Positions 2,345 through 23,183 of a DNA stretch of 23,201 nt are shown piece after piece. The notes under the pieces were generated by a model. That model made no database searches. It was not told the DNA's origin and worked only from the letters and a program-made list of their open reading frames with translations. How positions within the stretch are numbered: position 1 is the first letter of the stretch; the number at the start of each line of letters is the position of its first letter. The translations under genes and the position numbers were made by a program. The stretch covers positions 1 through 23,201 of IMG/VR virus record IMGVR_UViG_3300017917_003254. The stretch is one strand, 5' to 3'. This DNA is from a virus.

Positions 2345-4140
2345 GTGTATGGTCCATCATAAATTGCAAACATAACTCTAGTAAAGTCAGTGGCTGTACC
2401 GGCAGCATTAGCAGTCCTAACATCGATGCTAGTAGCACCTGCGCTTACCGTGCCGTTTAGGTAGAAATATCCGTTGCCATTCACAGACCCAACCACGGTT
2501 GGGTTAGAAGTTGGCATTGGAATCGGCGTGTTGGATATGTCAGCTAGCGTCAGGCTGTATGCTCCTGTTCCAGTCCTAGTAACCGTGGCCACATGGTGCG
2601 ATGCAGCTACGGCCAATCCTGTTATCGTTCCTATGAACGTGCAAGCGTACTTAGCTGTGTTACGAGCACGTATGACACCAGTGGTAGCAAGAGTTACATC
2701 GCCTTCCTTGGCATATCCAGCAGCAGATGAGCTAGAGTTAATCCTGATCCTGCCTGATGCGTCAACGACAAAATCGTTAACATCAGTAGGTGTAGCTGAG
2801 AACGTGCCGTTAGCTACGGTCGAACCATTCAAGACATTAGAGCCGCCAGTTCCGTTGATCGATACGATGACGTTACCGCTTACAGTAAAGTTGTCCTGTA
2901 TGACGGTAGCCCCACCAACGAACAAGCTTCCGGTCATGCCTACTGCCCCGCCTGATATTGACAGATCATTTGGAATGCTTAACGAGCCTGAGTTAAAAGT
3001 GATAGTATCGGCTGCTTGGTTGCCCAGCTCTGTGTTGCCAGTGACCGCCAAGTTAACCGTGCTGAGATCACCGGCCACAGTGAGGTCTTCGCTGACTAGC
3101 AATTCGCCTGCTATCTCAGCATCACCGCCTACTGTGAAATCACCTACTACTTCTGTCTCAGTGGTATTAACCTCGAATCTCTTCTCGCCATTGGCTGTGA
3201 TAGCTAACCTGTCAGGGCCTGGATTATAGATGCCTGTGTTGCTGTCGCTTATGAAAGTGACAGTAGGAACAGCCTCGCTGCCATCCCTAAACTGCATGGT
3301 TTCGCTGTCTGTTATGACCGCAGCTAAATCTGTTCCCATGATGAATTGTAGATTACCAGCAGTTTGCTTCGTTATCTTAGCAACGGTGCTGTCCACGCTG
3401 AGCTTGATGTCGCTATCGGCGCCGACCACTAAACCGGTATCATTGAGCACTCCTAGCGTTCCGCTAGTCGTGTCGTTCTCATCTGATCTCAGGAACTGCT
3501 CCGAGCTAATGCCATCAACTGCATCTGCGTTAGTAGCAGTGCCATGAAGCTTGGTTCCAGTGATGTTGCTCAGCGTTAGACCGCGATTGATACCAGTGAA
3601 TCCAGTTATAGCAGTCTGTGGCACATAGTCTGGATCACCACTGAAGATTGCCTTTATCGATCCGTTCTGCCATATGACCACAGCGGTGTGGTTGCCGGAA
3701 GTGGTATCAACTATGTTTTCTGCATAGGCTCCGGACTTGCCCTGTGCTGCTGTATATGTAGGTGCTATCACCTGCCATGCTGCGCCAGTGAATAGCTTGA
3801 GCTGTGCGTCAGTTACGTCGTACCATAGATCGGCCTGCCTAGGGTTTCCAGGTTCTGCTGGAGCAGCAGTGATCCTAGCTAGGGAAATGAAACCAGTGCT
3901 GCGATACACCTTGATGGAACGTTCGCTCTTATCGTACCAAATCTGCCCCTCTATGGGCGTGCTTGGGCTAGTCGTGTTTGCAAAGTTTTCCAGCAGCTTA
4001 ACGAAATTTTCGTTAACAAGCTCGCCGTAGTTCTTGTACAACCGTCCTATCAGAGCTAGATTTGTGCTGGTAGTATCGGCTGAACCATCTGCTATGGTAA
4101 CCAGAACCGTTCCGTCTGTCTTGTTTATAGTAACGCTCAT
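2341..4140 (-). CDS. Long tail-fibre-like structural protein
   Basis: This 599-residue protein begins MSVTINKTDGTVLVTIADGS and contains LIGRLYKNYGELVNENFVKL and EGQIWYD, an N-terminal module I recognise from fibre or structural proteins of T4-like marine phages. From about residue 200 it becomes a long Gly/Ser/Thr/Val-rich region with short repeats such as LTVAGDLSTVNLAVTGNTEL, typical of trimeric beta-helical fibre shafts. GGAG lies six bases before the ATG, and a GATAAATA late motif lies about 45 bases upstream inside the previous gene. The gene follows the 974-aa protein by 11 bases and is coupled to two small putative assembly proteins, which supports a fibre role. Confidence 0.75.
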   Translation of the reverse strand: MSVTINKTDGTVLVTIADGSADTTSTNLALIGRLYKNYGELVNENFVKLLENFANTTSPSTPIEGQIWYDKSERSIKVYRSTGFISLARITAAPAEPGNPRQADLWYDVTDAQLKLFTGAAWQVIAPTYTAAQGKSGAYAENIVDTTSGNHTAVVIWQNGSIKAIFSGDPDYVPQTAITGFTGINRGLTLSNITGTKLHGTATNADAVDGISSEQFLRSDENDTTSGTLGVLNDTGLVVGADSDIKLSVDSTVAKITKQTAGNLQFIMGTDLAAVITDSETMQFRDGSEAVPTVTFISDSNTGIYNPGPDRLAITANGEKRFEVNTTETEVVGDFTVGGDAEIAGELLVSEDLTVAGDLSTVNLAVTGNTELGNQAADTITFNSGSLSIPNDLSISGGAVGMTGSLFVGGATVIQDNFTVSGNVIVSINGTGGSNVLNGSTVANGTFSATPTDVNDFVVDASGRIRINSSSSAAGYAKEGDVTLATTGVIRARNTAKYACTFIGTITGLAVAASHHVATVTRTGTGAYSLTLADISNTPIPMPTSNPTVVGSVNGNGYFYLNGTVSAGATSIDVRTANAAGTATDFTRVMFAIYDGPYT

Positions 4141-4151
4141 CTATTGCTCCC

Positions 4152-7076
4152 TCAGGCCCATATGTTTTCACGCGGAAATGCAAGGTATTTATCGTCCGCA
4201 TCCGGGTCCTGGTATATGCTAATGTTGTTGATAAACCTCGTCATGTTGTTGTCAAATGTGGTAGCACTTCCTGGCTGTACCGGTTGATACTTCTCATAGC
4301 GTGGCACGGTTTCGCCTACGTCAAACTTCGGTAACGGACCGTACTGCATGATGAAACCACCGTATCTCACTCCATATTTTACCTGTACGGTCTCGCCTGC
4401 ATCTACCACAGTGATTAGATTTAATCTAAACAGATTGCTCGAATCTTTGGTTATTTCCCATATTCCAGATCGCTGATTTACTGTGCTGTTATCAAATGAG
4501 TCTATGTAACCAGGTATGACCTCGTAATGATCCCAGCCGTTTACGGTATCTTCCCAACCAGCGTCGTCCCAGCTGTTTAGATTCCTCGTCCAACCTTGGT
4601 TTTCATCCAATATGTAACCAGGATAATTTTCCTGCAGGGCGAAGATTATCTTCTTGCCTTCGTAGGTATCGATTATTCCGTCTAGTCCTCCCAGCACGTT
4701 TTCCACGAACGATTGTGTGAGTCCATCTATCTGATTGAATGGCGAGCTAACAGCAAAGTCCACTATGCCAACTGGTTCTTCAAACAGTCCTAGTTCAGAA
4801 TCGAACGTCGTGACCAAGCTCTCATCGTATGTGCCACTAGTAGCATCATAATGCTTAGAAAGGTTATTATCTAAGATATATCTATCTACTTCAAAGCTCA
4901 CTAGGTTGATGTTAGAATTGTTTCGCTCTATGTTGAAAGCTACCTTATCCCCTTCACCTGGCTTGACATACGCTAGCACCACAGCAGGCACCCAACCGAT
5001 GATTCTTCCGTCCTCTTGCTTGCTAGTCATCCATCGTGGCAATGGTTCAAGCACAGACAACGATAGATCTTCGATCATCTTGTTGCGCATGTTGATCAAG
5101 CTGCTAGGATAGACTATCTTGTCAGTCCTGCCGTCTAGGCTGCTCAGATTAGTATCTACGATCATCTTAGAAGTATCAACAGTGGTGTCTCTCTTTATCC
5201 TGCCCGTGAAGTCAATCATGCTAGGAGCACTGGTATTGAGGTTTTCCATCTGATCGTCTAGGATCTCAGCATACACGACTTCATAAGCTACCGATTGATC
5301 ATCATTTAATGCTCTAGCTACTTTAAAATTGCTGAACCTAAACTTCTTGCGATAATGGTTGGTAGACATGGCCTGGATGTATTGCGACATGGTGCTGGCC
5401 TTGATTCCAGACAGCAGCAACATCCTCAGATCACGGCTGCGACCAAAATATGGATCTGAGTTCCTGTAGAGTATCTCGTTAGGTATGACATCAGTGTTGC
5501 TAATGGCTTGACGAACTATTTCCTTGTCTTCTAAGCCTGGCTGCGATTTTAAGTAAAGGCTCTCGTATGGTCCATATCCATCCGGTGCCAAGGTCAGCTT
5601 GAACGTCCTGTAAGCTACCAGTTCTCCGTTTGAATCGCTGGCCTTTACCTTGAACACGTATTCTCTGTCAAATGTTGTCTGTCCGATCAACACACCTAGC
5701 TGCCTAACGTTGACATCAAATGTTGTCTGGCCTTTGTCATAGGCAGTGATCTCGAAACTAGGTCTACCAACTATCAACCCATCCGAATTGAGAGATAGGC
5801 CTTGTGGTAACTTGGTATCAACATCGTCGTCATAGACTAGGGTGTAGATCAGGTTACGACCTAGCCCATTGCTAGCCGATACGTACTTCTCAGAAATAGA
5901 TCCTGTCTTTAACTCGCCTAGATCGCTAGGCGTGTCCCAGCTTATGAAATACCTGAGATCATTGACCAAGGTCATAGTAAAGTAAGTGAGACCGCTGATG
6001 TAGTCAGGATAATCTCTCTTGTAGACTCTCAATGCAAACTTGTAGTCAATCTGTCCTAGCACCTGGCTAGGTATCTGTCCATATAGCCAACCAGTCTCGG
6101 TGTTGAGAGTGAGCCCAGGTGGCAGTTCAAAGTCGCCAGCATCGAATAGCGTGCTGTCAAACCCATTGATCGAATTGTCGTATCCAACATTAACGGCTAC
6201 TAATAGAGTGAAGTTTACTATGTCGTCATCAAAGTCTTTGGCTTCAAACCTATAAGCGAAGTAGTTGTCAGCAGCATAGACTCCTAGGTCAGCTGGTCGA
6301 GTCAACAAGACAGGCGTGTGCTTGGTTTCTAGATCTGCTGTGAGGAACTCATCATCATCTGTGGTTATGTCGCCGTTGTCAGCTCGCATGTTACCGTGCG
6401 CATACACGTAGATCGTATATCTAGCACCATCATATGACTTGCCATCAGTGGCTTGGACTTCAAATTGATAGCTCTTGCTGATGAAGGAAGATCCAAAGTC
6501 CCACGGGAATTCCTCCCATCTTCCTTCGCTGCTCCATCCTACATTAGCTTCAACCTTGAGATTCACCTCAGGTTGCACATATCCGCTGATGATGCCTGTG
6601 TTGGTATCTAGCGTCAATCCGCCTGGCAGTTCCCCAGCAGTTATAGCCCAGCTTATTGGTTCGTTATCTAGGTCAATTGCTTCTAGCTGATAGCTGAAGA
6701 ATTCACCGTCTAGGACCCTAGCTAGTTCCTGATCTGGTGTGGTTATCACAGGCGGATCTTCACCTGTGACTGTTATGCTAAAGGTCCTGTCAGTTATCTG
6801 GTTGGTCGAGGATGAAGTTGCACGGCAGCAAAACGTGCTGGTCACGTCTTCGCTAACATCCTGTGGCACGCCACGCAGATAATATAGCTCTTTAGGATTA
6901 CCGATGATGGATCCGTTCTCGTACATGACTAGCCCGGGAGGTAAACTTCCGGCTACGATAGCGTATTCTACATCACCGCCATCAGGATCTGTAGCTTCCA
7001 TCTGTAACTGATAGAAGGTCTGTTCCTGTATGGTTCCTAGATTTCCTGCTTTTGTCTTCCAGAGTGGCTTGCCCAT
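4152..7076 (-). CDS. Large virion protein with Ig/cadherin-like repeats
   Basis: This 974-residue protein carries about four He_PIG/cadherin-like repeats in its N-terminal half (around residues 20-60, 125-167, 270-335 and 395-440). Each shows the pattern Y/F-x-A-x-D-D followed by LPPGL-x-x-N-x-x-T-G-x-I-x-G. The C-terminal half has no repeat that I recognise and ends in an Asp-, Tyr- and Asn-rich tail. Such domains in phage virions are surface-exposed and may bind carbohydrate or hold fibres. Its ATG has no Shine-Dalgarno; instead a perfect TATAAATA lies only six bases upstream. It is the largest gene in the window and sits among fibre genes, so a baseplate or fibre-hub role is plausible but unproven. 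Confidence 0.7.
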   Translation of the reverse strand: MGKPLWKTKAGNLGTIQEQTFYQLQMEATDPDGGDVEYAIVAGSLPPGLVMYENGSIIGNPKELYYLRGVPQDVSEDVTSTFCCRATSSSTNQITDRTFSITVTGEDPPVITTPDQELARVLDGEFFSYQLEAIDLDNEPISWAITAGELPGGLTLDTNTGIISGYVQPEVNLKVEANVGWSSEGRWEEFPWDFGSSFISKSYQFEVQATDGKSYDGARYTIYVYAHGNMRADNGDITTDDDEFLTADLETKHTPVLLTRPADLGVYAADNYFAYRFEAKDFDDDIVNFTLLVAVNVGYDNSINGFDSTLFDAGDFELPPGLTLNTETGWLYGQIPSQVLGQIDYKFALRVYKRDYPDYISGLTYFTMTLVNDLRYFISWDTPSDLGELKTGSISEKYVSASNGLGRNLIYTLVYDDDVDTKLPQGLSLNSDGLIVGRPSFEITAYDKGQTTFDVNVRQLGVLIGQTTFDREYVFKVKASDSNGELVAYRTFKLTLAPDGYGPYESLYLKSQPGLEDKEIVRQAISNTDVIPNEILYRNSDPYFGRSRDLRMLLLSGIKASTMSQYIQAMSTNHYRKKFRFSNFKVARALNDDQSVAYEVVYAEILDDQMENLNTSAPSMIDFTGRIKRDTTVDTSKMIVDTNLSSLDGRTDKIVYPSSLINMRNKMIEDLSLSVLEPLPRWMTSKQEDGRIIGWVPAVVLAYVKPGEGDKVAFNIERNNSNINLVSFEVDRYILDNNLSKHYDATSGTYDESLVTTFDSELGLFEEPVGIVDFAVSSPFNQIDGLTQSFVENVLGGLDGIIDTYEGKKIIFALQENYPGYILDENQGWTRNLNSWDDAGWEDTVNGWDHYEVIPGYIDSFDNSTVNQRSGIWEITKDSSNLFRLNLITVVDAGETVQVKYGVRYGGFIMQYGPLPKFDVGETVPRYEKYQPVQPGSATTFDNNMTRFINNISIYQDPDADDKYLAFPRENIWA
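4186..4193 (-). promoter_or_regulatory. T4-type late promoter motif (GATAAATA)
   Basis: The minus-strand octamer GATAAATA lies about 45 bases upstream of the 599-aa fibre gene start, inside the end of the preceding gene. It matches seven of eight bases of the T4 late box. Confidence 0.4.
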
Positions 7077-16397: not shown

Positions 16398-16405
16398 TAT
16401 TTATT
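16398..16405 (-). promoter_or_regulatory. T4-type late promoter motif (AATAAATA)
   Basis: Minus-strand AATAAATA lies just upstream of the acidic protein gene and immediately after the terminator at 16413-16435, a classic placement for a new late transcription unit that also covers the lipase. Confidence 0.55.
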
Positions 16406-16412
16406 CAAGAAG

Positions 16413-16435
16413 AAAGGGCGCACAAGGCGCCCTTT
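16413..16435 (-). terminator. Rho-independent terminator of the tRNA/HNH unit
   Basis: A 9-bp perfect stem (AAAGGGCGC with GCGCCCTTT) encloses a 5-base loop. On the minus strand it is followed by a broken T tract (CTTCTT), directly after tRNA-Thr(GGT). The reverse direction has TTTTCT, so it may work both ways. Confidence 0.8.
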
Positions 16436-16442
16436 TCTAGAA

Positions 16443-16591: not shown

Positions 16592-16993
16592 TTATGGCAA
16601 CGATCTTCTATATTTTCGTCCGTTACCTTTGTTACGTGCTTTGTATGTATCAGTCTGTGAATGGCAGTTAGGACAGATTAGTCTGAGATTTTCTGGACGG
16701 TTGTTCTTGTGGTTACCGTCTATGTGATCACATTCTAGAACTAATTGTCGACCATTCCACTCTGAAACATTGCAAATCTCGCAACTGTTTCCTCTTTGCT
16801 CTACAAGGTACCGTTTAGCCCAACTTGGTACTTGCAAATGCCAATCTATGTTTTTATCAAGCCAGTCACTGATCCTTGCTTGTGTTTGATATTCAAGCTG
16901 GCATGCATTTGAACAATACACATTCTGCTTAGAATAAGTGACCTTGGTTTCTTTTCCGCAGTGTTTACAGTTATAGGTGGTAGAGCGTTTCAT
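16592..16993 (-). CDS. HNH endonuclease, free-standing, with zinc fingers
   Basis: This 133-residue protein has an N-terminal zinc finger (C9/C12 in CKHC, C27/C31) and a C-terminal HNH nuclease fold with zinc ligands C71/C74 (CEIC) and C107/C110 (CPNC) around the core ECDHIDGNHKNNRPENL, ending at NCHSQTDT with H111. D89-H90 and H111 would be catalytic and metal-binding. It lies between two threonine tRNA genes, a typical site for phage homing endonucleases that copy themselves into intergenic sites. I place the start at the ATG at 16993; there is no Shine-Dalgarno, and a CTAAATAA motif lies directly upstream. A GTG at 17014 is possible. Confidence 0.85.
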   Translation of the reverse strand: MKRSTTYNCKHCGKETKVTYSKQNVYCSNACQLEYQTQARISDWLDKNIDWHLQVPSWAKRYLVEQRGNSCEICNVSEWNGRQLVLECDHIDGNHKNNRPENLRLICPNCHSQTDTYKARNKGNGRKYRRSLP

Positions 16994-17101: not shown

Positions 17102-17341
17102 TTATGGCCTTGAGGGCCAGATACCTTCGTAAGCTATGATCCAATGCATGCCCTTGGCCGGGCCAGGATAGTTAGGAAGGGCAAATGTAGTCCTACCATC
17201 TCCACCAAACGTGCAACCTATCAGAGCAAACAGAGGCTGATATTGGCTGATAGGTAGTTCCTTGCCATCACAAGGTAGGAAACCTACCGGGTCATAATTG
17301 AATGCTACCAGCTTCATCTCGCCTATGAATACGTCTTCCAT
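17102..17341 (-). CDS. Phage tail-collar-domain protein
   Basis: This 79-residue protein is almost entirely one tail collar domain (PF07484 type): GEMKLVAFNYDPVGFLPCDG, then KELPISQYQPLFALIGCTFG and GDGRTTFALPNYPG. In larger proteins this domain is found in short tail fibres and in microcystin-dependent-like proteins. Here it stands alone, which is short even for the small forms. The ATG at 17341 has AAGG seven bases upstream; a TTG at 17356 also opens the frame but lies on the Shine-Dalgarno. It lies between tRNA-Thr and tRNA-Ala, away from the structural operon, and may be expressed early with the tRNAs or be a relocated fibre-tip fragment. Confidence 0.85.
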   Translation of the reverse strand: MEDVFIGEMKLVAFNYDPVGFLPCDGKELPISQYQPLFALIGCTFGGDGRTTFALPNYPGPAKGMHWIIAYEGIWPSRP

Positions 17342-17362
17342 ATCGATACCTTTCAAATAACT

Positions 17363-17438: not shown

Positions 17439-17445
17439 TAATTTC

Positions 17446-17559
17446 TTAGTCTGCTAGAGGCTTCTGACGCTTCTGCTTGCGTGTCTTGTATCCAACCCAT
17501 CCACGTGACTTCATCAGTGCATGGCGCTTTTGATTAGCTCTTTCTGCGTTCTTTCTCAT
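17446..17559 (-). CDS. Tiny basic protein, 37 aa
   Basis: This frame encodes MRKNAERANQKRHALMKSRG and continues WVGYKTRKQKRQKPLAD. About 14 of 37 residues are Lys or Arg, so nucleic-acid (possibly rRNA or tRNA) binding is a reasonable guess. A GAGG Shine-Dalgarno lies five bases before the ATG. It is preceded by a 120-base leader with a predicted pseudoknot and a strong hairpin, and is placed between tRNA-Pro and tRNA-Ala in one transcription unit. The quality of the Shine-Dalgarno and the structured leader argue that the frame is real despite its size. No family recognised. Confidence 0.6.
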   Translation of the reverse strand: MRKNAERANQKRHALMKSRGWVGYKTRKQKRQKPLAD

Positions 17560-17577
17560 CAGTCCCTCAAATATGTT

Positions 17578-17669
17578 GAGTGGCTACTTTACGTAGCCGC
17601 CACTCACGGCTCTCCTCGAATGTAGTTTCACTAGATAGAGCCTAGGTACTAGTTACCCTGCTACACTCG
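17578..17669 (-). promoter_or_regulatory. Pseudoknotted 5' leader, candidate riboswitch-like RNA
   Basis: In transcript order (minus strand): P1 5' strand CGAGTGTAG (17669-17661), a small hairpin GGTA/TACC, P2 5' strand GGCTCT (17642-17637), P1 3' strand CTACATTCG (17625-17617, nine pairs with one G-U), then P2 3' strand AGAGCC (17613-17608, six pairs). The interleaved order makes an H-type pseudoknot. A long hairpin (GAGTG..GCTAC, 17578-17605) follows, then the Shine-Dalgarno of the 37-aa ORF. This architecture resembles riboswitch-class cis-regulators, but I cannot assign a class. Confidence 0.55.
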
Positions 17670-17679
17670 AAACTCCAAA

Positions 17680-17756
17680 TGGTCGGAGTGGTAGGATTCG
17701 AACCCACGACCCATTGCTCCCAAAGCAATTGCGCTACCAGGCTGCGCTACACTCCG
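17680..17756 (-). tRNA. tRNA-Pro (anticodon TGG)
   Basis: Acceptor CGGAGTG/CACTCCG, D arm GCGC/GCGC, anticodon stem ATTGC/GCAAT around TTTGGGA, T loop GTTCGAATC, encoded CCA. Anticodon TGG reads CCA and CCN. It is the first gene after the promoter at 17772-17800. Confidence 0.95.
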
Positions 17757-17771
17757 TTGTTCACATTGTTA

Positions 17772-18941: not shown

Positions 18942-19304
18942 TTAGTACAGGAGATCAACATGTCTTGTCCAGGTTGCGAAATCACGCGAGTCATATATGG
19001 TGTTACCAAGAAGGGCTCTGCGAGGCCCAAGGATGATGCCATCCCGACCTCATCTAAGCTTGTCCGCGCTGACAACGTCAAGGTCGTAGATGAACATAGT
19101 AACCGGGCAGTCCCACCTGTCGTTGGCGTAGGCAATAGCACGGACGATGGTGGTGTTGCATAGATCATCGTACATCAAGACCTTGGAACCCCATTCAAAC
19201 TGAGTAGCGCCGGGAATAGAGTTATCGTTCTGGCTAGCTTCAAACACTACGTCAACCTCAACCTTGTAGCTGTTGGTCCTGTGATCAACGATGTTGCAGA
19301 TCAT
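18942..19304 (-). pseudogene. Gene split by in-frame TGA (84 + 35 codons)
   Basis: From the ATG at 19304 (ATGA overlap with guaC) the frame encodes 84 residues, [20 protein letters not shown] and onward to DVVSADKLR, then TGA at 19052-19050. The same frame continues without another stop to TAA at 18944-18942 and reads GRDGIILGPRRALLGNTIYD followed by SRDFATWTRHVDLLY, which looks like genuine protein sequence. The distance from that TAA to the next ATG (18930) is 11 bases, a normal gap here. The simplest reading is a CGA-to-TGA nonsense change or TGA readthrough; a sequencing error is also possible. The full 120-aa product has no function I recognise. The 84-aa product would be 19050-19304. 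Confidence 0.6.
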
Positions 19305-20404
19305 TTCACTGTCCTCGATTCAAAAACCGTGTTGTGTGTAGCATTGACTCTGATGAACGTGGTACACTTGCTGAGCTGCTTTAGGCTGCTGGCACCAACG
19401 TAGGTGCATGAGCTACGCAGGCCGCCTAGGATGTCCTGCACCGTGTTGACGATAGGTCCCTTGTATGGGATGAGGACTTCACGGCCTTCGCTAGCCCTGT
19501 ATTCCTTGAGCCCACCAAAGTGCTTCTCGTTGGCTGCTTGGCTGCTCATGCCGTAGAACTGCACAAACGCCTGTGTCTCGACCACGCCCTTGCCATCTGC
19601 ACCCGTCCAGTCTTTCTTGTGCCAGCGTGTCATGACTTCTCCACCGCCTTCATCATGTCCTGCAAGCATGCCTCCAAGCATGACAAAATCCGCGCCTGCT
19701 CCAAAAGCTTTAGCAACATCGCCAGGAGTAGTGCATCCGCCGTCAGCAATGATATGTCCACCCAGACCGTGAGCTGCATCGGCACATTCAATGATAGCAG
19801 AAAGTTGTGGGTAGCCGACCCCAGTCTTGATTCTAGTAGTACAAACAGATCCAGGACCAATACCCACTTTAACAATGTCAGCGCCATTTAGGATCAGTTC
19901 CTCTGTCATCTCTCCAGTGACCACGTTGCCTGCGATGATCACGACATGTGGATAGGTCTCTCTGAACTGCTTGACGAAAGCAACGAAGCGTTCTGAATAA
20001 CCGTTAGCAACGTCAATGCAAGCAAACTTGATAGAACCCACAGGCAGCGCAGAATACACAGCGTCAAACTTGCTTAGATCCTGCTCGCTGATGCCCAAGC
20101 TGTAGGCCCAGTGATCACCAATGTGTCGACCAACTGCGTCGATCCATTCCCTCAGCTCATGCTTGGGGTAGTGCTTGACCAAGCAGGTGAACAGGCCTTG
20201 CTCAGCCAACTTCTCTGCTACAGCAAAGGTTCCCACGCCATCCATGTTAGCGGCCATGATGGGCACGCCGCTGTAAGCGCGGCCGCTAGTGCGGAAGTTG
20301 AAACCTCGGAATAGACTAACCTCGCTTCGGCTAGCTAGTGTGCTACGCTTTGGTCGTATCAGCACATCCTTGAAGTCAAGCTTGACGTCATTCTCGATTC
20401 GCAT
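19301..20404 (-). CDS. guaC: GMP reductase
   Basis: This 367-residue enzyme is closely similar to E. coli GuaC, which reduces GMP to IMP and ammonia with NADPH. Landmarks are the start [49 protein letters not shown], the catalytic-cysteine loop [11 protein letters not shown] (Cys188), [20 protein letters not shown], the flap FYGMSS, and [13 protein letters not shown]. An insertion of about 15-20 residues before FYGMSS (near [12 protein letters not shown]) is longer than in E. coli. I chose the ATG at 20404 because it aligns with the E. coli start and has AGGA six bases upstream. It would feed host GMP back to IMP and adenine nucleotides during replication. GuaC is an uncommon phage metabolic gene. 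Confidence 0.95.
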
Positions 20405-20415
20405 GTTTAATCCTG

Positions 20416-20901
20416 TTAATCTTCTAGCAAGTATAACGGTTCTTTGAAGAACATGCAACTAAGAACTATCCTAGGATAGGTGCATGCTTCAGTCATCTCT
20501 ACACCGTGGTTCATTGATGCATTGAAAGCGATGGGCGTCAGCATCTCATGCCTGGCTATGAGATTATCATCGTCATCCCACCATAGGTTGTAGCTGCCCT
20601 GTGTGTTAGCGATAGGAATGTTAACCTTGGCCACCACTGGAGGTGCATCTCGATGCTTTACTAGTCCTTGAGGACCTCGACATACCGTGACTGCGATGTC
20701 TCGCAGCATGAGATTGCTTTTCTTGAACCAACCTTGCAAGCTAGGACTTGCTAGCAGTGCATCCTTGGGACTGAAGAAATTCCAACTGAATATCTTGTTC
20801 AGGCTGATGTTGTAAACGTCTACTTCGCTGACCAAGAACTGCATGATCTCTCGTTGGATCAAGGGCAGCTCTTGGCATGTCATAGCAGCGTAAGGACGCA
20901 T
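20416..20901 (-). CDS. Probable 2OG-Fe(II) oxygenase-like (cupin-fold) protein
   Basis: This 161-residue protein has a layout consistent with a double-stranded beta-helix Fe(II) enzyme: H83-x-D85 (KHRDAPP), a central [19 protein letters not shown] strand pair, a second histidine in [10 protein letters not shown] (H132), and R144 in PRIVLSCMF, which would bind 2-oxoglutarate. Aspartyl/asparaginyl hydroxylase-like and other 2OG oxygenases are common in marine T4-like phages, with mostly unknown targets. The start at 20901 has only a weak GAG-type site. It ends 11 bases before guaC and follows tRNA-Arg. The assignment rests on motif order, not on overall similarity. Confidence 0.6.
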
Positions 20902-23108: not shown

Positions 23109-23183
23109 TGGTAGTCCCTGCGGGAATCGAACCCACGACATCAACCTTGGCAAGGTTGCGCTCTACCCCTGAGCTACGCCCGC
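23109..23183 (-). tRNA. tRNA-Gly (anticodon GCC), acceptor stem unpaired
   Basis: D arm (GCTC/GAGC), anticodon arm (CAACC/GGTTG around TTGCCAA) and T arm (GTGGG/CCCGC, TTCGATT) are intact and CCA is encoded. The acceptor strands GCGGGCG and AGGGACT do not pair, so it may be a chimera or a dead gene. Confidence 0.7.

Follow-up and report, generated by a model that had tools for sequence, protein, structure and literature searches.

A structured leader ahead of a 37-aa open reading frame in a phage tRNA array, with a pseudoknot as a possible alternative state

Introduction

The question raised by this locus is whether the RNA leader that separates a tRNA-Pro gene from a small basic open reading frame (ORF) is a pseudoknotted cis-regulator, as the initial annotation had proposed, or a more ordinary structured segment of a phage tRNA array. 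Precedents for several answers are available. In T4, the genes e, soc, 49 and I-TevI are documented cases in which the Shine-Dalgarno (SD) sequence or the AUG is masked, a pseudoknot is found in the leader of gene 32, and the tRNA region gives rise to RNAC and RNAD, two small RNAs whose role is unknown (PMC3014915). In cyanophages and marine sequences, manA and wcaG have been described as candidate riboswitches (PMC2864571).

The window analysed here is the whole 23,201-nt stretch of the IMG/VR record IMGVR_UViG_3300017917_003254. The contig looks like that of an uncultured T4-like phage, and it encodes gp9/gp10-type baseplate N-termini.

Results and Discussion

Along the minus strand, tRNA-Pro(UGG) at 17756-17680, found by both ARAGORN and the Rfam tRNA model and with its CCA encoded, is followed directly by the leader (17679-17560), then by the 37-aa ORF (17559-17446) and finally by tRNA-Ala(UGC) at 17438-17363, which forms the 3' boundary of the leader-ORF segment. 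The 5' end of the leader would be generated at 17679 by 3' processing of the tRNA-Pro.

Sites resembling the T4-type late promoter TATAAATA were found directly 5' of several genes of the contig, their total over the whole contig being not above the chance expectation. On the minus strand from 16405 to the contig end there is none with at most one mismatch. Compared with the sites before other genes, this makes read-through from upstream the likely source of the transcript.

The array holds a number of other features. A phage tail collar domain (PF07484) is found in an 84-aa ORF at 17102-17356 (minus strand), which stands alone between tRNA-Ala and tRNA-Thr, away from the baseplate-like genes. 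A strong terminator-like hairpin, AAAGGGCGCCUUGUGCGCCCUUUCUU, follows 3' of tRNA-Thr(GGU) at 16398-16442 (minus strand), and the late-promoter-like sequence AATAAATA is found between this hairpin and the next ORF. At 23120-23176 (minus strand) there is a tRNA-Gly(GCC)-like sequence that is detected by Rfam and missed by ARAGORN; its acceptor strands pair poorly, and it is perhaps a decayed tRNA.

The ORF itself, MRKNAERANQKRHALMKSRGWVGYKTRKQKRQKPLAD, fits exactly between the leader and tRNA-Ala, with its stop codon 7 nt before the latter. The initial annotation had placed an SD sequence ahead of it, and GAGGG is indeed present at 17568-17564, at normal spacing 5' of the ATG at 17559. The codon score is +0.09 in the ORF frame and negative in the other five frames; this is a weak score, below that of most genes of the contig and above that of the HNH endonuclease gene. 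The ORF has no PHROG or Pfam match, and neither tblastn nor two peptide patterns in viral contigs gave anything other than chance matches (the search covered IMG/VR and INPHARED). That the ORF is a gene is plausible.

We now consider the stems of the leader. All the helices that had been described are present at the positions proposed for them. Stem S1 is formed by CGAGUGUAG (17669-17661) and CUACAUUCG (17625-17617), giving nine pairs with one G-U, and it can be extended to 12 pairs with three G-U (17672-17661 with 17625-17614). Stem S2 consists of six pairs between GGCUCU (17642-17637) and AGAGCC (17613-17608). A small hairpin, H1 (GGGUA-ACUAG-UACCU, 17658-17644), sits inside loop 1, and a strong one, H3 (GAGUGGCGGCUACGUAAAGUAGCCACUC, 17605-17578), follows with an energy of -14.0 kcal/mol and a z-score of -3.93; H3 is the source of most of the excess stability of the leader.

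The unconstrained minimum-energy fold is a nested structure and not the pseudoknot. It keeps H1, S2 and H3 and is closed by an outer stem in which AGUUUCGAGUGU, the 5' strand, pairs with a 3' strand at 17575-17562 that overlaps the SD sequence. Since S1 and the outer stem use the same 5' strand, the two are mutually exclusive. The nested fold has an energy of -40.1 kcal/mol. With the S1 strands excluded, the leader folds at -31.0 kcal/mol, and adding S1 and an assumed usual pseudoknot penalty yields a rough estimate of ca -36 kcal/mol for the pseudoknot. On these rough numbers the nested fold is predicted to be somewhat more stable than the knot, by a margin smaller than the error that these models carry.

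It is important to consider also the loop lengths. Loop 3 has 3 nt with the nine-pair S1 and none with the 12-pair version, and a loop of 0-3 nt would be too short for 9-12 bp of S1 in an H-type knot with classical coaxial stacking. A knot with such a loop would need an irregular, bent arrangement.

As to chance, the energy of the whole leader corresponds to a z-score of -2.78 and was equalled by one of 200 shuffled sequences. This value has to be regarded as moderate only, as it is reached by ca 2.6% of the 120-nt minus-strand stretches of the contig. The interleaved stems had been judged unlikely to arise by chance, a view that the calculations do not bear out: on stacking energies, dinucleotide shuffling of the 120-nt leader yields an equal or better interleaved stem pair in 3.5% of cases, and 14 of the 1006 92-nt stretches taken from both strands of the contig match or exceed it, with at least some of the 14 lying within genes. 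For the 72-nt core the fraction is much lower, 1 in 1000 shuffles (0.1%), this core having been picked after the fact. Folding against shuffled sequence, which had been suggested as a check, gives a divided answer, in that the whole leader and H3 stand out from the shuffles while the pseudoknot core alone, as a nested structure, does not (z -0.58). On these tests together, the hairpin is solid and the knot at most suggestive.

These results bear directly on the proposal that the leader is a true pseudoknotted cis-regulator of the ORF, with S1 and S2 present at the same time and bound by either a protein, as in T4 gene 32, or a ligand. The two stems are long and adjacent, the core is rarely matched by shuffles, and S1 and S2 would both be complete while the competing 3' strand has yet to be made, such that the knot could form first. 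Against this stand the frequency of equally good stem pairs in leader shuffles and along the contig, the short loop 3, the lead of the nested fold on rough energies, and the outcome of the searches described next. Taken together, we consider this explanation quite improbable.

The leader was compared with known RNA families and with other genomes. Rfam at the gathering threshold and cmscan over 17440-17770 with E-values up to 10 returned the tRNAs and a chance snoRNA match only. Membership in manA (RF01745) or wcaG (RF01761), which had been entertained in the initial annotation, thus finds no match in the covariance models, and the same applies to the glutamine (glnA), preQ1 and SAM-II models that it had listed for the same comparison. 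No homologue of the leader was found in IMG/VR, the GTDB species genomes, INPHARED or PLSDB, collections from which the records closest to the window may be missing; blastn gave short chance matches only (E at least 1) for INPHARED and none for PLSDB. Loop-based DNA patterns were also run on viral contigs and species genomes, where all examined matches lacked the stems or the tRNAs, and several of them turned out to be Thr/Ser/Ala-rich coding repeats; for the viral contigs, the first scan refers to the matches listed and the stricter second one is complete. A 377-aa protein and a radical-SAM protein, two of the larger ones encoded nearby, gave no relatives in IMG/VR.

Many viral contigs carry relatives, at 62-69% identity, of an IMP dehydrogenase/GMP reductase-like gene that lies within the tRNA array at 19301-20458 (minus strand). 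Only one of the viral loci found through it, L008, has the order tRNA-Pro, spacer, tRNA-Ala. We also considered the leader as a decayed tRNA copy, on the grounds that GAGUGUAGC is common to it and to the 5' end of tRNA-Pro. This is a 9-base match only and no tRNA model matches, and the option was set aside.

In another phage, represented by L008 (436-547) and L089 (5345-5453), a highly folded non-coding RNA lies between tRNA-Pro(UGG) and tRNA-Ala(UGC). A 12-bp stem closes this RNA around three hairpins, two of which carry the complementary stretches AUGCGA and UCGCAU and may form a loop-loop contact; complementarity of at least 5 between branches is found in ca 0.15% of shuffles. It has no Rfam match. 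Placing this RNA in one class with the leader was considered and turned down as unproven, as the two share no sequence and the three-branch junction found in both arises in ca 10% of shuffles. Two other array spacers were observed in L087. One is a strongly folded 194-nt RNA between tRNA-Cys and tRNA-Tyr (3817-4010, the same in L088 and near-identical in L090), in which two hairpins both carry GUGUAGCAAC and for which no Rfam family was found. The other (6303-6583, the same in L088 and L090) encodes a small basic protein of 48 aa 3' of a long leader, with a distant match to phrog_17967.

The alternative that the segment is a stand-alone structured RNA, excised from the tRNA transcript in the manner of RNAC and RNAD and with the ORF incidental to it, draws on this setting: processing of the flanking tRNA-Pro and tRNA-Ala would release the segment, the T4 tRNA region yields two such small RNAs (PMC3014915), and in L008/L089 a non-coding RNA of 109 nt occupies the corresponding place between tRNA-Pro and tRNA-Ala. 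However, that RNA has no sequence in common with the leader, a junction of at least three branches closed by at least four pairs appears in 10% of the leader shuffles, and the ORF is preceded by a proper SD and has a codon score above zero, so we regard the excised RNA as unlikely. A further possibility is that the leader is spacer RNA, in which a stable hairpin and chance complementarity occur together and serve no specific regulatory function. Equally good interleaved stems elsewhere on the same contig are in line with this, as are the nested fold of the core, no better than that of shuffled sequence, and the lack of demonstrated conservation, although the z-scores of H3 (-3.93) and of the leader overall (-2.8) are not entirely ordinary. 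A mere spacer is in our judgement somewhat unlikely.

The reading that we tentatively prefer, at rather less than an even chance, is that 17679-17560 is a structured translation-initiation leader of the 37-aa ORF within the tRNA array, with SD masking of the T4 type. The leader and the ORF would be co-transcribed with the tRNAs, and the ORF would be translated at a level affected by the fold of its leader. On the long transcript, the 5' strand AGUUUCGAGUGU would pair with the SD-bearing stretch and close the three-hairpin junction; with the SD in the outer stem, the ORF would be poorly translated. Alternatively, the same 5' strand could pair within the S2 loop, and the SD would be freed if the knot indeed forms. 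Sensing of a ligand would be unnecessary in such an arrangement, where, as in T4, the SD or AUG is held in a helix.

The base-pairing probabilities lend some substance to such a switch. In the free leader, four of the five bases of the GAGGG are mostly paired (unpaired probability 0.07-0.37), and reserving the S1 strands, as in the pseudoknot, raises the unpaired probability of the SD to 0.66-0.89. Folding leader and ORF together changes the picture: the SD then has the ORF as its partner in place of the outer stem, and the knot opens it far less. The switch is therefore model-dependent, and an SD-opening transition between the two folds is put forward here as a hypothesis.

The masking reading is thus favoured by the fold of the leader (z -2.78), the shift in SD pairing, the SD and codon score of the ORF, the likely read-through and the T4 precedents. 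It is weakened by the moderate size of the z-score, by the pairing of the SD with the ORF when this is included, by the weak codon score of the ORF and its lack of homologues, and by the leader having no relatives.

It is instructive to compare the leader with the known systems. With the masked initiation regions of T4 (e, soc, 49, I-TevI), mobE of Aeh1 and segB it would share a helix of upstream sequence over the SD and long read-through transcripts, but it lacks an internal late promoter for a shorter, open transcript, it is multibranched where theirs is a simple hairpin, and its ORF has no known function. The likeness to T4 gene 32 is a possible pseudoknot 5' of the start of a T4-type phage gene. 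In that case, however, the knot is bound by the product of the gene, the single-stranded DNA-binding protein, while the ORF here is an unrelated one of 37 aa; the two stems are present, but the loop lengths of the leader (0-3 nt for loop 3, with an S1 of 9-12 bp) would suit the coaxially stacked gene 32 form poorly. RNAC and RNAD are similar in being non-tRNA segments within a phage tRNA array, but the leader matches phage records only by short chance hits, and an SD and an ORF come after it. Both manA and wcaG are phage leaders too; here there is neither a model match nor a sugar or exopolysaccharide gene downstream.

A clearer case of a regulatory hairpin of the known T4 kind is seen in the same array. 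At 17017-16974 (minus strand), a 13-bp hairpin with a z-score of -6.9 covers the start of an HNH endonuclease gene, with a GGUGG stretch in the stem and TAAATAAAG in the loop. The loop carries TAAATAA, near the late-promoter sequence, and the enclosed ATG at 16992 is likely the true start. The hairpin resembles those that hide the ribosome-binding sites of T4-type homing endonucleases such as mobE, segB and I-TevI (PMC2988022, PMC3014915).

Conclusions

The initial observation holds in part: the segment is a structured leader ahead of a small basic ORF with a good SD, most likely an ordinary T4-type initiation region or an array spacer, for which a pseudoknot is a possible alternative state. 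A more far-reaching option, which we consider very improbable, is an undescribed type of pseudoknotted leader whose 5' strand toggles between an internal knot with the SD free and an outer stem with the SD hidden, and in which tRNA processing, a protein or a ligand would set the translation of the small basic protein. The leader is currently a single unreplicated sequence, and the evidence is compatible with a common T4-type arrangement. If the leader does switch, it would be an addition to the very short list of phage leaders with translational control by a pseudoknot, and the processing of a phage tRNA array would be linked to the translation of a small gene embedded in it.
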